Shown here: piece after piece, positions 46,011-55,971 of the stretch | How positions within the stretch are numbered: the first letter of the stretch is position 1 | Layout: the number at the start of each line of letters is the position of its first letter | From: Halichondria panicea | Taxonomy: Eukaryota; Porifera; Demospongiae; Suberitida; Halichondriidae | Length of the DNA stretch: 64,000 bases | NCBI RefSeq assembly: GCF_963675165.1 | Contig: NC_087391.1 | Location: forward strand, 1,569,001-1,633,000 | Direction of reading: 5' to 3' | Position numbers and translations under genes: made by a program | The notes under the pieces: generated by a model | What the model was told of the DNA's origin: nothing | The model's input: the letters and a program-made list of their open reading frames with translations, nothing else | Databases searched by the model: none

Positions 46011-46320
46011 GAACAATAAATCATACAAACTTTTTCCCACGAGCTGACACAAACCTGACTTCTCCAACATTTGTTATACAGTGCAGTATCTATATTAGTT
46101 GGGCATGACTTTATGTTCAGAGTCGGGGCAAAATCTGTCAGGAAGGCTAAGCTGCCAGTTCTACAATATGTCCTAGATCCTGATCCAATCGATGTGTCTA
46201 CCACGTGGGCTAGATTTGCACACATGCGCGAAAATGAGAAACTCCTCCTAGCTGGGGCCAGACCACTCCTTTGGCCTCCAGCTGTGTAAGGTCGAAGGTC
46301 ACCCACGTGGCATAAAATTA

Positions 46321-49300
46321 ATGTCAATGGCTTTATGCAGTCGTAAGAACTTCTACCCTTCTTTTTGTTGGTCGTGCAGGCAGCTATGGAGGAGTAAGGC
46401 TGGATTGAGGTTGCTAAGAAACATAGGAGGTGAATTATCTGACAACCCACTAGCTCATTTCGTTCGTTTTCTATCTCCGAACACAAGTACTCTACCAGTT
46501 CGATATGTCCACACCTCATCCCAGTCATGCAGGGACAGTTCTGTATCCACCGAAGTAGGAGGAAGGTGTGTACAGATACGAATAGAATTCACAAAATACT
46601 AGTGGTCGCTTACTAAATAGCCATTTCGTTATTTTTCTTTCAGCTCCATAAATTTCTCCACTGGGAAGTTTGCCAAACTGGCCTCAGGCTCTGCTCTAGT
46701 GGAGGTATGCATGAGCCTGTATTGTTTTTAGTGGTTATGTGCCTATAATTATGTGTTAGTGTAAGGTTGGAGTAATTCAATGAATGTGTCCTATTCTGTT
46801 CTGCTCAGAGTGGGTCCACCAGTGTCCTAGTAACGGCTGTCAGTGAGTACAAAGCAGATTCGTCAGCCAGTTGGCTACCATTGCAGGTAGTATTTGTTTT
46901 AATTCGTCATAGTCTATGAAATAATTGATTGGTTAAAGACTTAGTTCACACATCTTGATAGAATAACCATAATGGTGGAAAATTTCGTTATTTCGTATTG
47001 TAGAGCATCATACTAAAGTCATAACTACGAAATTATTCCGTTCAACATCACTATCCTGGTATTTAAAATACTAAATGGGTAGTTTATACTAAAATTTGAA
47101 CCAACGAAAATTACCCGCTATACAGTAGCTACATGCAATAATGACAGCATGTACATGTACATGTATGTGCATGATAGAAAGTACCATATATCTTCATTAT
47201 CCATGCTCCACTGACTGTTGCTAGGTTGACTATCGAGAGCGTGGTTCTGCTACTAACAAGATTCCTCAGACCTTCTTCAGACGAGAGCTGAGGCCCTCCA
47301 CTAAAGAATACCTCGCCTGTCGCTTCATTGGTCAGTTAAAAAAAGTATTAACACTTATATTTATTTGAGGTTTCTTTAGATCGCTCCATTCGACCATTAT
47401 TTCCGAATGGCTACTACTACAATACACAGGTTGGAATGCTCGTATCCATCCATACTGTGTAGTGTCAGCTGTACTGTGCTCCTAGATCATCTGTAATATG
47501 CTGGCAGTGGACGGTAACGAAGACCACGAGATCCTGGCTGTCAACGGAGCAGCTGCTGCTCTCATGCTTTCGGACATTCCCTGGAATGGGCCCATCGGTG
47601 AGTCAATAGCCAGCTGCTGTAGTCGTAGTCAGAGGGAGGGTTTGGTTGCTATAAGTGATGTCTTACTTAAGTGACATCTTTGCAAGGAGCGATGCACTAA
47701 CTGTTCTTTCACTTTTCAGGTGTGGTACGAGTTTGTTTAATGGATGGCAAGTTCTGCATTAACCCCTCAACTAGAAAAGTAAGGTTGTGATTCTACTTGA
47801 ACTACGTTGTACTGTTACATAGTGTGCTTGTCAACCTCTGTAGCAAAGCGCTTGCCAACTGAACTTGATTGTGGCCTGTACGAAAGACAGAATAGGTGAG
47901 TGGTGTTTGCACTGTTGTACCCATAGTAACTGATGTGGACTAAGAGCTTACATATGTATGTATTAAGCACCCGTACTTTGTACATGTATTGCTTACTTAC
48001 ACGGTCCCCCTCCCCTACTCAGTCATGGTGGAGGGCAGCGGAGAGGAGGTACCAGAGGACATGATCTGTGAGGCTGTTCACTTTGCACTCAGTGAGGTGA
48101 GAGCTTATAAACTACTGCAGACTACAGGACGCAGTTATGATTATTGTAGAGATGTCTATTTTGTAGTCAGAAAGTCACAGGAAACTTGTATGGTTCATAT
48201 ACATGTAATGATCGACTGCATTGACGTTCCAGGCCCAACCTCTGCTAGAGTCACTCTCTGAACTGGCCCAGCATCGTAGAGTACCAACCAGAGAGTCTCA
48301 TCTTTTCCTGCCCTCTCAGCATGTGCTTGATACCGTGAGAAGGTCAGAACTTATCCAATATCTGTTTTCATTGCAAGGGAGTGTATGTAGAGCTCTATGA
48401 AAAGTGTTGAGTACCAGATAGAGACCTGATATTGCCAGATAATGGTAATCACACTTTTGTCCATGCACCTTAAGCTTGTGCCGAGAGCAGCTAATGACCA
48501 TCCTGTGTACAACCACTCACTCTAAGATGAGCAGAGATGAGCAGCTGTTCTCGTTATTGGATGCCACCAAGAAAATGTTGGCAACAGATGAGTTGGTGGA
48601 TGTGAGCAGAGTGGGAGATGCGTTCTGGGGCAATGTACATCATTGTATGCAGGAGCTGGTTCTGGAGAGAGGGATAAGGTACAACATTGAGATAGAAGTA
48701 CCTGAGTGTATGCACTACTTACCCTCCTTATATCCCGTTGCTATGCTGTTGCTATGTGCAATATGCAGCATAATGCACTGTATCTCATATTCTGCACTGA
48801 CCGCAAAGCCTTGAGGGATTAAATGATCATGATATACATGGCAAGAGCCCATAAAGGAGAGAGAGTGTGTAACTTACGTGTCTGCTACAGTACGGGCAGA
48901 TTCTAAAACCGCTACTATAAATAGAACTGTGGTCACGTGCGATTACATTCCATACACATCACTGTCACATGCAGCAGTGAGCGATTTCAAGAATTGTACT
49001 ACTTATAGTAGCGGTTTTTGATTCTGCCCGGTCTGTAGTGGGCGGGAGTTACACGCTCTTGACATATATTTAAAATAAATGCTGCATAGCAAAGGCTTCC
49101 AGTATTGTCCAGTTCTTTACTGTCCGCTTCAGCTTAGGACACAGTCGTATTCGTACTCGTTGAAGGCATCGTCGGAGTTGGCCGTTAATTGGGGAGTGGC
49201 TGTTTTGCAGGGGAGGAACTGTTTGCAGGCTGCAGCAGAGTTTGGGGTGGGGCTGCTTGAGTTGCAACTTGCATTGCAGCTTTGGGGTGGGATGTTTTGC

Positions 49301-52300
49301 AGTGTTGAAGGTTTTGCAGGGGTGGGGCTGCTTTACTCTTGTCTAGCGAGGTCCGAGGAGCCCGACGTTTTGTGAGTCAAGCCATTCGTTGTGCCAATGA
49401 CAGCAATGTTGAATGGTCAGATACTGGTGTCTTTGAGCAGAGATGCAAGCAGCTGGAACTAGTCTCTTTCAGCTGGGGTGTATTTTGTGTTGCTAGGGGG
49501 ATATAAACTAGTTATGACACATGCACTCGGGATGCATGGTGTATATTGCACTCAGCCCTCGTGCTTTAGTGCAATATACACCATACAATCCCTTGTGCCC
49601 GTGTTATAACTATTACATACCCCACACCCCACACCCCATACCCTGTTCATACCCTGTCCACCCTCTACACCCCACCCACATATCAATCCCTCTACACCAC
49701 ACACATCCCATACCCTCTACACCCCACACCCCACACCCATACCCTCTACACCCCACACCCATACCCTCTACACCACACATCCCATACCCTCTACACCCCA
49801 CACCCCACACCCTTACTCTGTTCACCCTCCACACCCACCCTGTACTCTGTTCACCCTAAGGCCTCTACACCCCATAACCCTGTTCATCCTCTACACCCCA
49901 TAACCCTGTTCATCCTCTACACCCCATAACCCTGTTCATCCTCTACTCCCCACATCCAGTTCACCCGGCACCCTAAAACAATAATGCTACATAATTTGCT
50001 CCGATTATTCCTTTTATTGGCTTTTCAGATTAAACCTACAGTATGTCTATACTCTCCTTTCTTTCACACATCGCCTTTGTGTCCTCACACACAGATGTGA
50101 TGGTCGTGGGTTCAATGAGCTGAGGAACATAGAGTGTGAGGTGGACACATTCAAGCCGCTTCACGGGACAGCTGTGTTTCGTAGGGGGGAGACCCAGGTC
50201 CTCTGCACTGTCACCTTTGACTCTCCAGGCTCAGCTGTCAAGGCAGACATACTGCAAACATTACTAGGGTGAGAAGTTCTTTATTTGTAGTTTCAGAAGA
50301 TTATAAGTTATGGCCACTCAACAGAGGAGGTCCGACATGCGTGTACGTATTTGGCCTGTACACTATCACGTGACCACAATGACACTAATGCACTGAACTT
50401 GTAGTGATTTGTGCACGCATGTCGGACCTCCTCTGTCCACTCAAAGATCATCACATGTACACGTAGCATAATATTATGTGATTATATGCCGCCAAATACG
50501 CTACTAACACTTTCTCTGCAGTGCTCAGAAGACCAGCAGCTTCATGGTACATTATGAGGTAAAAAGACCCATTCAAAGTGCTATAGCCACAATACTGTGA
50601 CATACTTTTCCTTCAGTTCCCGCCATTTGCGACAAACTCTATTGGAAACTTCATGAATCACAACAGGAGAGAAGCTGGACACGGTTAGAAACTAGAAGAG
50701 ATCGAGTTGTCTTTTGTTACACATACAATACTTTTGTACTTCAGAGTGTTAATTAAGTGAAGGTCACCTAAATATGTTTCTTTGTTGCTGGACAGGTGCC
50801 CTTGCCGAGAAGGCTCTTACTCCACTCCTTCCCAAGAACTTTCCTTTTACAATCAGACTCAACTCTCAAGTGCTCGACTCGAATGGTGAGCCTGTCGACA
50901 ATCTAAAGTGTCCCTTTCTCAATAATTTTATGTTTTTACACGCAGGCTCTAGTTCCATGGCTACCATATGTGGAGGCAGTCTTGCCTTGTTCGATGCAGG
51001 TGAATAGTATGTATACATGTACCTTCTGTGTAATGTTGCTGGCATCTTAATGTGCTTTGCGATTTAATTGACTCCCCCCTAACTTGGTTCAGGTGTTCCG
51101 ATGCCCCGCCCAGTAGCAGGTGTGGCTTGTGGTCTAGTGAGCAGGACACACCCCGAGACTAGGGAGATTGACCAGTACCAGATCATCACTGACCTACTGG
51201 TGTGTACTGTATGTCATAATCAATACCCAATCTTCTGTGTTAATTTAGTTAGTATATGTATACGGTCGCTGAACTTAAATTGATCGTGGAAGTGTTGTTC
51301 ATGGCGTAGATAAAAGTTTTGTCTTTTTTTCCAACCACACTGCAAGATGCAACCTTCAATGCAGGGTATAGAGGATGCCAATGGAAACATGGACTTCAAA
51401 GTTGGGGGCACGAGAGAAGGTGTCACTTCAATACAGGTCAGATGACAGTAGTCACGTGACAACCGTTTCACGTAGCAAATTATTCGGATATAGATGGATG
51501 TTAAGAACGTTCTTGGAATTCCTTTTCATATTTTCGAGGAAGCCCTAATAAAGTCAAAAGGTTAGCAGTCTGTTAGCCCCCTACTGAGACACTCACCTAC
51601 ACACCCTCACACGTATGCCCACCCACACACACCCCTCACATGTACGCCTACACCCCATTGCAGCTGCTCGTTTCCAGGTGCTGGACATTATGGACGAGTG
51701 TCTGTCAGCTCCACGAGAAGAACTAAAGAAGAACAGACCAGCACAGAGTAAGCTAAGATTATGGCAGTTGTACACATCAGCTACTGTATAGCCTGTAGGT
51801 GGAGCCTGGTCTAAAAATTGTGAATTTTGTGGATCAAATTACAGAGGCAGCCGTACTTTTATTATAATTATTGTACACCCACAAATTTTGCAATTGAATA
51901 GGTATATTTTGAGGGTGTAAATATCCGCGATTTTTGCTGATTAAGTATGTACTGCGAATATTTACATGTAAAACTGCGAAATCCTTTCTAATGGTCTCTC
52001 CGCAAAAGTTTATACCCTCGAAATAATAATACATACTTGTTAAAAATGCTAAATCCCTGCTGTGGTATGCAGATACCTCTTCTCATCACTACACACATAC
52101 ATGTACTCACATGCACACACACACACACACGCATGCAGCCGTGATGGAGGTTGCTCCGGACAAGCTGGGTCGTCTACTAGGGGTGGGCGGTCATCGTATG
52201 AAAGGCGTGGCAGAGGACACTGGTACCACGTTCCAGGTTTTGGGGGAGGGTCAGGTCTCCGTGTTTGGCCCCTCCCAGGAGGCTGTCGATGAGTTTATAG

Positions 52301-55300
52301 AGAAAGCAGACAGTTTCCTCAAGGAAGACGTGAGTGGTAGAAAAATTTATACGATCTTTTTGTAGTAGCTACGTGCACTAACGTTAGTCTAGTGCCATGG
52401 CTAGAAATCGTTCTTGGTTTGGGCCTAAATTTCAAAAAATGTTAACCATTAATCTGAATTTTTATTTTTATTTTATTTGCTCCAGCTTCTAACTAACTGT
52501 TGGTTGGTCATCCTCAATCATTTCATTTTCCATTTCTCGCTCAACCCAGGAACAAATTTTTGAGATTGGCTCTGTGATTAAGGCGAAAGTACTGGAGGTA
52601 CGAGAGATAGGACTAATGGTGGAGCTGTCCCCTCGCGTCTACACTCTGCTGCACATCTCCAGAATCAGTCACGACTTTGTGAGTGGAAGCGTTTGAGTCA
52701 CCATAATTATAGTGTAGCTGATCAAAGTATATGTACTTGTACGTTTGTTGGCAGTTAGTAATAGATACATGTAGGTGCAACCACTACTGACAATAGAGAC
52801 AATTAAGTTGAATATAACGTGAATGTGGTGAAGAGCTACTAGCATGTATTCTGTCTATATGTATGAAAGTCGTCAGCTGTGAGTAAAATTCGTACGAACA
52901 CATAATTTATTCAGATTACATCGTCATGTATGGGTATGTGTTCTGTAGATCATGTGACAGGACAGCTTTGTTCTACGTAATGTCAGTACCTCACACTCCC
53001 TCCTTATTCTTGCAGATAACGCATCCCTCTCAGATCGGTGTGGTAGTGGGAGACACAGTGAACGTCAAATACTTGGGCAAAGATTTCCTGGGAAAACACC
53101 TCGTCTCAAGAAAAGCACTCACGGAGCCACCCCCCAAGCCAGATGTTGTGCGTACCATGCTAGTAACTAAGTTACAGTGTACTTAACAACTTCTAGGTCT
53201 TGTATATTTGCAAGTATTGAACGTAGGTAAATGTATGTAGGTACAATCAGGAGCCCTATTTATGGGCTCCTGGTACAATGTAGATGTATCACATTCATTG
53301 TTATCCTAAAGTAAATAGAATATTGTTAGTTCTGTGTACTGCATGTACACAAGTATGTAGTAGACAACAGTATGCGATGCTTGTACCATGTCTTAGTAGT
53401 AGCCCATTCTAACATTGCTCTCTTGTACACTGTCTCTTTGCAGGCCCAGTCGAGCATGTTCAGCGTTGGTCAGGTGATCCAGGCCACTGTCAAGGAGCTG
53501 GTGAGCTTTGGCATCGTCATGGAGCTGGCCCCTGACGTCTCCGGGCTACTACACATCAGGAACCTAGACCACGCCTATGTGAGTTAATTAAGTAAAGTGC
53601 AAAATTACATCGACCACCATCAGGGTTTCATACAGGATCTTTAGCAGGGAGGGGGTTCTGGGGTCCTTCCCCGAAACATTTTTTGATGGTTATTCGAGGT
53701 GCAATGTGTTTCAAACCATAAATTTTCTCTATTAATGTATCATATTTCTAGGGGGGGGATTTTGGCTGGGGGTAGGAAATCCCAGGGCACCCTCTCTCTG
53801 TATTAAATCCTGACAATGCATTTTTGGCAGATAAGTTTGAGGGCTGATAAATGTCTAGTAACCTTTTACAGGTCAGCCGCACACAATCTGGAACCTGGAA
53901 CAGTTCCATCACTTTAGTTTGCATCACTTTAGTTTGCATCTGAGCCCAACCCACCAAATTAGCTTGATGTTATCGCCGCCCCCAATGAAGTGGCTATGGC
54001 TTGTAGAGATGGGCGTGGGTCAATGGCTGTGCACAAACTAATCATCGATTTTATGCCTTGCTGCTGCCTCGATGGAAGTATGTGTGGCCTCTAAAAGCTG
54101 CACTCTGGTCAACTAAGCTGCTTTAGCAAGCATGTAGACTATTGTAGAGCTTGTGTCCACTTGTGAAGTGCCTGTGTAACACAAATGGCTTGCTGCTTCC
54201 TCTTCGAAAATATTCTATGGCTACCAAGATAGTCCAGAGGGTCTGCCAATAGATACTACTCAGTCCTACATGCTGTATAGCTTGTTTTAAACCTCTTTTT
54301 TTTAAGTGTCCTAATTGAACAGCTCAGCAGAACTTCAAAGGATAATCGGATTCATGATACTATCCAATCTGCCACACAATCCAATACCATGCAACATTCA
54401 CAAGTTGATAACACGCTCCCTCCCAGATTGTTGTTGTAAAATTTACAACAATTTGACCGGCAAAGGGGTAAAGGGGTTATTCAATTACCGTATAGCGAGT
54501 TTACTTTTAATACTGGAAATAAAATAATCCCAAATTTTCGAGGTACAAAGTCAAATCCGCAAAAACTTCAAAAATGCGTGCTTCGAAAAAAACCAGCTAT
54601 ACGGTACATCCTTTAACTTTGTTGTTGTCATGAATTCATTATTATTCTGTAGATTCGTCAGACCTCTGATCTTGGGTTTAAGCCTGGTGACATAATCCCG
54701 GTGCAGTACATGGGCATCGATAATGTGGGTAGACACGAGGTGTCTCGTAAAGCCCTCCTCTCCACACCTCCTCAGCAGAAGGTCAGTTATTACAATTTCT
54801 GCGTAAACAATTAAATTATCGTAAAGGTGTGCATGTGTAACAGTTGTGTACAAGGCTTTGTAACAAAGAGCTCTGTCCATGTAGCAAGGATGTTGTTGTT
54901 CAGTGTTTCATCCCCAGATGCGTTTTGAGCCGGGTCAGGTGATCCCAGCAACAGTCAAGGAGGTGAGAGACATTGGGGTGATGTTGGAGCTGGCTCCTGA
55001 CGTCAATGCTCTACTGCACATCAGGAACCTGCAGCATTCATTTGTGAGTGTACTTATTTCTTAATCATGACTTCTTAGAAGCCATGTGCAAAGTCGACAA
55101 ATTGGTCCTGTTATAATACGTGTTTAGAAATGTTGCTTCTATATCCTGGTTAAGACATTTTTTTTAGGAACCTATTAATTATATTGTATTGCCATGCAAT
55201 GTATTACGTTCTTAGAGTTTACTAGGAAAACATGTGTGCACTGTATTCATTTGCATCTATTCTTCCTTCCCTGTCCCTACAGGTCCGCCACCCCTCTCAG

Positions 55301-55474
55301 CTCGGTTTCAAGCCCGGTGACAAGCTATCTGTCAAGTACATGGGTAGTGACGAGAAGGGTCGTCACATGGTCTCTCGTAAAGCACTCTTACCTCCACCTG
55401 ATGTACCTGACGCCGCCGGCATGACCAACAGGACTGTGGTAGAGGAGGTCACCTCTACGGTAACAGAACAATAG
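46321..55474 (+). CDS. PNPT1: Mitochondrial polynucleotide phosphorylase with three S1 domains
   Basis: 3'-5' phosphorolytic exoribonuclease of mitochondria. Twenty-seven exons from ATG 46321 to TAG 55472-55474 join with matching phases to 978 codons. N-terminus: basic, Arg/Leu-rich ([20 protein letters not shown]), a likely mitochondrial presequence. RNase PH domain 1 (about residues 100-250): [48 protein letters not shown]. Helical linker (250-380). RNase PH domain 2 (385-600): [80 protein letters not shown] domain 635-698: [20 protein letters not shown]. Then three S1 repeats at about 699-785, 786-873 and 874-978, each split over two exons with the intron at the same place. Human PNPase has one S1 and 783 residues, so the extra length is the two added S1 copies. 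Confidence 0.95.
48838..49064. mobile_element. Foldback element in a PNPT1 intron
   Basis: CGGGCAGATTCTAAAACCGC at the left pairs with GCGGTTTTTGATTCTGCCCG at the right; outer CAAGAGC/GCTCTTG also pair. No coding content. Confidence 0.75.
49613..49975. repeat. C-rich minisatellite in a PNPT1 intron
   Basis: Irregular tandem units of the type TACACCCCACACCCCATACC and CATAACCCTGTTCATCCTCT fill the intron between exons 11 and 12. Open frames here are by-products of the repeat. Confidence 0.9.
50320..50437. mobile_element. Short palindromic element in a PNPT1 intron
   Basis: ACAGAGGAGGTCCGACATGC is exactly inverted as GCATGTCGGACCTCCTCTGT about 75 bases later. Confidence 0.85.
53624..54606. mobile_element. 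Repeat-filled PNPT1 intron between the halves of the second S1 domain
   Basis: 53624-53815 is a degraded copy of the AGGGTTTCAT MITE (starts AGGGTTTCATACAGGATC, ends ATTAAATCCTGA). 54486-54606 is a TACCGTATAGCGGG-family MITE (ACCGTATAGCGAGTTTAC to CAGCTATACGGTA). No exon is seen between them. Confidence 0.7.
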
Positions 55475-55971
55475 TTATAGAGGAGGAGTAATAATTTATT
55501 AATTTATTGTTTGTATACTATCAGCTATTAAATCACACCACCTCTTCAGAGGGCTTTGCAACAATTTTGTAATGCTGTTAAACTTAAACTTGAACTTGAC
55601 ATACCGTAATATTATTTATTATTAGAGCATGATGTACGAGCACTTTTAAAATGAATGGTACATCACACAAAACGTTGCTAATACCATTGGTACTGCCTAG
55701 TAATAAAAATTATATTAATAGTGTACCAATGGCAGATTATTTTCAGGCAGCTATAGATATATCTATATATAGCTTTTTGGCAATCTGAATTAAGGGGGTT
55801 TCCCAGGGAAATACCTGGCCATAAAAAAGCAAAGGCAAGTATTGAGCAGCTGTAGATCTATATTAAGTTGGCCTGATAATTGTGTACTCTTGATCGATCC
55901 TCAACCTCAGCGCAGCCAAGACTTAAGACATCAGATTCAAGACCAGCTGCCATACTGCACGCAATTAAAGG
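55475..55971. other. Region between PNPT1 and the RNF213-like gene
   Basis: About 500 bp, AT-rich, with an ATAGATATATCTATATATAG near-palindrome at 55752-55772. It should contain the PNPT1 poly(A) signal (AATAATTTATTAATTTATTG area) and the next promoter; neither is certain. Confidence 0.35.

Follow-up and report, generated by a model that had tools for sequence, protein, structure and literature searches.

The window analysed here, a stretch of 64,000 nucleotides from the sponge Halichondria panicea (NC_087391.1, positions 1,569,001 to 1,633,000 of the forward strand), carries a gene of the PNPT1 type, encoding polynucleotide phosphorylase (PNPase), in which the KH domain is followed by three S1 domains in tandem. 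The gene comprises 28 exons with GT-AG borders at 46113-55474 of the plus strand, and its frame closes to give a protein of 1014 amino acids for which Pfam returns the order RNase PH (twice), KH and S1 (three times). The model was spliced by hand on the basis of GT-AG borders and consistency of frame, and its splicing is predicted; exon 1 and the start codon are its least certain parts. Taken as a whole, the explanation that we consider probable is that the sole PNPT1 gene found in this genome encodes a constitutively spliced KH-S1-S1-S1 enzyme with a longer RNA-capturing tail. The three S1 units (U1, U2 and U3), as delimited by the gene model, Pfam and comparison of the units with each other, are each split over two exons of the plus strand. 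The first and second halves are exons 23 (52550-52678, 129 bp) and 24 (53016-53147, 132 bp) in U1, exons 25 (53444-53578, 135 bp) and 26 (54653-54781, 129 bp) in U2, and exons 27 (54918-55043, 126 bp) and 28 (55283-55474, 192 bp) in U3, exon 28 also containing the C-terminal tail and the stop codon. Scored singly, the units reach 27.9, 30.2 and 24.1 bits, all above the Pfam curated cut-off of 22, in agreement with the sequence-only reading of this DNA, which had described three S1 units after the KH domain.

The identification of the gene as PNPT1 in that same reading is likewise borne out by both the catalytic core and the closest structures. RNase_PH (PF01138, 163.8 bits) and RNase_PH_C (PF03725, 50.5 bits) each match in two stretches, and among solved structures the highest score goes to mitochondrial PNPT1 (9njb; 671 bits, E 3e-200, residues 111-816), the best chain under any other name scoring 443 bits. 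PDB 3u1k is named as human in PMC8836086; 9njb and 9kjt carry the name PNPT1, mitochondrial, and are taken to be human. PMC12599292, whose residue numbers anchor the human numbering used here, names R446, S484, D538 and D544 as essential and lists R445E,R446E as a mutant. The five catalytic positions looked at, human R445, R446, S484, D538 and D544, correspond to R507, R508, S546, D600 and D606, and all five are identical. Within the animal's own 131-Mb genome, 17 of 18 matches to the core fall in this gene and the remaining one, on C10, is weak; an exon-by-exon search of that genome, in which only the best candidates were scored, found no second PNPase gene. Judged by its relatives, the gene is thus of the PNPT1 type and would specify a mitochondrial RNA-degrading enzyme that is otherwise ordinary.

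Against this ordinary background the number of S1 domains stands out, since one S1 after KH is the usual, if not strictly defining, arrangement of PNPase and three are present here. We compared the protein with 85 bacterial PNPases, namely the best 80 of at least 585 loci from a profile scan together with five plasmid-borne ones (a sixth plasmid-borne locus, L022, was left unused); S1 domains were counted with a profile built from the five plasmid-borne PNPases and the window's own S1 units. These bacterial enzymes share the order of core, KH and S1, at 34-40% identity, but 84 of the 85 showed a single S1 and one (L085, whose frame ends at 530 amino acids) showed none; two frames (L060 and L092) run off their contigs. 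An initial scan of the genome contigs with the window protein as query gave no match, whereas the later profile scan did, and no match was obtained in viral contigs in the search for relatives. Human PNPT1 is colinear over residues 111-816 and its S1 is 37-44% identical to the units, yet it too has a single S1 after KH. In PMC9181182 and PMC12599292, metazoan and human PNPase, respectively, are described as having KH plus an S1 domain. The contrast with one-S1 enzymes drawn in the sequence-only reading therefore stands for bacteria and for human, but its uniqueness was overstated, as PMC9181182 also reports an additional S1, determined by bioinformatics, in the mitochondrial PNPases of seed plants, placing it at their N-termini and yet writing the tail as KH-S1-S1. 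The seed-plant enzyme, compared through this published description and without its sequence, resembles the window protein in being mitochondrial and in carrying an extra S1 in its RNA-binding tail; it differs in having two S1 domains against three and in belonging to a distant lineage, and the two additions presumably arose independently. In the open-access literature, so far as its accessible passages go, we found an added S1 in PNPase reported only in PMC9181182, and no report of a PNPase with three.

What the extra S1 domains might do is suggested by enzymes of known behaviour. E. coli PNPase has mobile KH-S1 tails that close like a clamp on RNA as it threads to the core (PMC8294330), and the human S1 is reported to be required for binding of a stem-loop RNA (PMC8836086). 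By homology, the PNPT1 product would be a mitochondrial, trimeric, phosphorolytic 3'-5' exoribonuclease. The C-terminal S1 would have been duplicated, probably twice, as an exon pair between phase-0 introns, and, constitutive splicing most likely uniting the six S1 exons in a single protein, the trimer would display nine S1 domains. U1 would keep the usual place beside KH at the mouth of the channel, whereas U2 and U3, joined through short linkers that contain proline, would extend the mobile tail. That tail would capture RNA and deliver the 3' end of the RNA to the KH pore, in the way of ribosomal protein bS1 with its S1 domains arrayed like beads; U2 might perhaps take over contact with a partner. 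Of the effects conceivable for the added domains, a longer RNA-holding tail seems the likeliest. The residues of the S1 RNA site were examined in an alignment that included 36 of the 84 bacterial S1s, with the E. coli numbers given in PMC6832287 placed by us on the PNPase of a gamma-proteobacterium (Amphritea). On this numbering every unit retains H34 and D64, and the R68 position is occupied by K in U1 and by R in U2 and U3. The units also share with human PNPT1 an extra residue before the second S1 half, found as well in the PNPase of Parabacteroides, one of the five plasmid-borne bacterial enzymes.

Several observations weigh against this explanation. None of the three units has F22 of the bacterial RNA site, which is absent from human too, and F19 is present only in U2, its loss from U1 and U3 resembling the human case; over 80 residues the net charge is +1 in U1, -1 in U2 and +4 in U3, so that U2, which has the best RNA-site columns, is slightly acidic and the least basic unit. 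In Pfam, KH_1 falls just under its cut-off (20.6 against 21.5 bits), with a GVGG loop that aligns with GPGG of PNPT1 and preserves the GXXG feature, and the helical domain (PF03726) scores 18.6 bits against a cut-off of 24.6, at the right position in alignment to human PNPT1. With respect to the helicase SUV3, the C-terminal model PF12513 yields sub-threshold pieces only in the genome, and the second C-terminal model, PF18147, has no match there or in any control genome.

SUV3 also enters into the main alternative, in which the extra S1 domains serve to dock SUV3 or some other mitochondrial partner and RNA affinity is little changed. A locus with SUV3-type helicase motifs, recognised from those motifs, is present at C2:8141000-8149000 (L141); the usual partner of PNPase is therefore probably available. 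The column of human D713 points in the same direction, as by alignment it holds S, D and Q in the order U1 to U3, the Asp of the human protein recurring in U2 only. One Asp in one column is nevertheless weak evidence, and every unit retains H34 and D64 and is basic at R68, which fits RNA contact; we therefore give docking a modest share of the probability and prefer the longer RNA-holding tail. A more elaborate reading, in which the units have divided the work, strikes us as improbable. Here U1 would be the gate beside KH, U2 would have regained most of the bacterial-type RNA site (F19, H34, D64 and R68) and would be the only unit to keep the Asp that, when changed in human PNPase, disrupts degradosome assembly, and U3, which has changed least and is the most basic (+4), would be an outer RNA hook. 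If such a division of labour were true, a crown of nine S1 domains would capture and feed structured RNA beyond the reach of one-S1 enzymes, in parallel with the longer tail of seed-plant mitochondria. As a separate observation, the C2 locus appears to contain, on the same strand and between the helicase motifs and the C-terminal pieces, an open frame of 359 amino acids whose CARD match comes close to threshold (22.0 bits against 23.9) and which may be a nested gene or part of an unusual fusion.

The constitutive inclusion of exons 23-28 assumed above has an alternative in which the exon pairs are used selectively, giving isoforms whose S1 number varies from one to three, the ancestral one-S1 form included, by skipping of pairs or by ending after exon 24. 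The anatomy would permit this, since each exon from 23 to 27 has a length divisible by three and is in phase 0-0, and any subset could be skipped in frame. The donor of exon 24 (GTGCGT) is the weakest of the five belonging to exons 23-27 and the sixth weakest of the gene's 27, read-through past it adds 12 residues before a stop, and motifs resembling poly(A) signals lie inside intron 25 (ATTAAA and AATAAA) and intron 26 (ATTAAA). Mutually exclusive exons, however, are usually adjacent single exons; the copies here are paired halves, and the last pair carries the stop codon of the full frame. Introns 23-27 measure 337, 296, 1074, 136 and 239 bp, a range (136-1074 bp) that imposes no steric bar between exons, and the splice sites of exons 23-28 are within the range of the gene and apart from the exon 24 donor ordinary. 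Given introns of sufficient length, splice sites that are otherwise unremarkable and units under constraint, it is simpler to suppose constitutive inclusion, and we rate such isoforms as rather unlikely.

The constraint just invoked emerges from comparison of the units with each other. Identity among U1, U2 and U3 is 43-59% at the protein level and 54-65% at the DNA level, 35-46% of aligned nucleotides being different, and their introns are unrelated: the six intron pairs compared share matches of 9-23 bp (E >=0.09) or none. Ratios of nonsynonymous to synonymous divergence (dN/dS) between units are 0.28-0.43, with dS above 1, and nonsynonymous change is depleted in each comparison (Fisher p 0.0013, 1.3e-5 and 6.7e-6, from rounded counts). 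On this comparison the S1 units are old, constrained copies, a conclusion that bears directly on the possibility that the array is an artefact of tandem mis-assembly or includes pseudo-exons. The exons are predicted from DNA alone, and local copying does occur in this genome: a piece of 178 bp (53043-53220; the last 105 bp of exon 24 and 73 bp of intron 24) recurs at C6:6027729-6027906 with 97.2% identity. Set against these points are the many nucleotide differences between units, the near absence of similarity between their introns, the constraint itself and the fact that all six S1 exons are open and in phase. Mis-assembly, which the sequence-only reading had itself singled out as capable of overturning its claim, was accordingly looked at and rejected, the units being too divergent, and we regard an artefact of either kind as very improbable. 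The C6 piece, which has an in-frame stop, is a recent dispersed copy made at the DNA level, possibly as repair filler; it is the sole match outside the gene among seven, and no second S1 array of the PNPT1 kind was found in the genome.

The origin of the array was addressed with a maximum-likelihood tree of 93 S1 domains, comprising those of 84 bacterial PNPases, U1-U3, human PNPT1 and five other S1 domains of the same genome. U1-U3 form one branch (100/88), the S1 of human PNPT1 is next to it (100/97), and both stand apart from the 84 bacterial PNPase S1s and the five others; as the units group with each other and then with human PNPT1, the array arose, on this tree, inside PNPT1. Together with the comparison of the units and the phase 0-0 exons, this supports internal duplication of an exon pair, as the sequence-only reading had proposed, and the two rounds of its account are probable: copying of the pair twice would be the simplest history. 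U2 and U3 are paired in the tree (100/92) and probably represent the younger pair, U3 with a branch of its own of almost no length (0.04). With 77 columns for 93 rows, a bootstrap not quite settled and a topology joining U1 to the human S1 not rejected (p-AU 0.256), the order in which the two duplications took place is likely but stops short of proof. Identity to the human S1 is 44% for U3, 41% for U1 and 37% for U2, and the human S1 aligns by position to U1 in the full-length search and to U3 when the array alone is searched. As far as one outgroup tells, the duplication would postdate the split from the human lineage. That the added S1s were instead taken from another S1 protein (bS1, RRP5 or one of a symbiont) has next to no probability in our estimation: bS1 does give the best phmmer score with the whole array (77.9 bits against 50.6 for PNPT1), but this reflects several domains in a row, and the single units are placed by the tree, which is short on columns, lacks bS1 itself and has the other own-genome S1s on long branches, with each other and then with human PNPT1. 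The likeness to bS1 is one of architecture, as the array is colinear with its residues ~189-424 (6h4n/6bu8) at similar spacing (235 residues in the window, 233 in bS1); bS1 differs in being without a PNPase core, whereas the array here follows such a core in one frame and its units group with PNPase S1.

The three-S1 PNPT1 is a real yet modest variation on a known protein and amounts to a natural experiment on the role of the PNPase S1 tail, in which the enzyme can be compared directly in its one-, two- and three-S1 forms. That an S1 was copied and kept under constraint, together with the seed-plant parallel, suggests that in some mitochondria selection acts on the length of the tail.

The remainder of the gene, all on the plus strand, follows the human protein. 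Exons 1-12 (46113-48678), assigned from the gene model, Pfam and the alignment with human PNPT1 from residue 111, encode an N-terminal extension, the first RNase PH domain and the helical domain; the extension, of ~110 residues ahead of the part that aligns with human PNPT1, is a possible mitochondrial presequence. The catalytic second RNase PH domain is contained in exons 13-21 (50095-51747; gene model, Pfam and catalytic positions), and the KH domain with its GVGG loop in exon 22 (52139-52329; gene model and PNPT1 alignment). Beyond exon 28, motifs resembling poly(A) signals are found at 55527 (ATTAAA) and 55702 (AATAAA). Introns 12 and 13 harbour inverted repeats at 48885-49038 and 50321-50436, with arms of 43 nt (86%) and 26 nt (96%) that are 68 and 64 nt apart, respectively, and which look like small elements of the miniature inverted-repeat transposable element type; intron 12 also contains a C-rich minisatellite (49616-49952) with units of ~22-29 bp and 74 bp. 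Among the 77 peptidase C1 matches in the genome, the 30 for which a locus was given were inspected for the silicatein signature, and none had it. Finally, elsewhere in the genome, seven peptidase C1-like matches are clustered at C8:493345-521186, each in a long single open frame, and in one C8 match of this kind (L120) Ser replaces Cys in the CGSCW motif.
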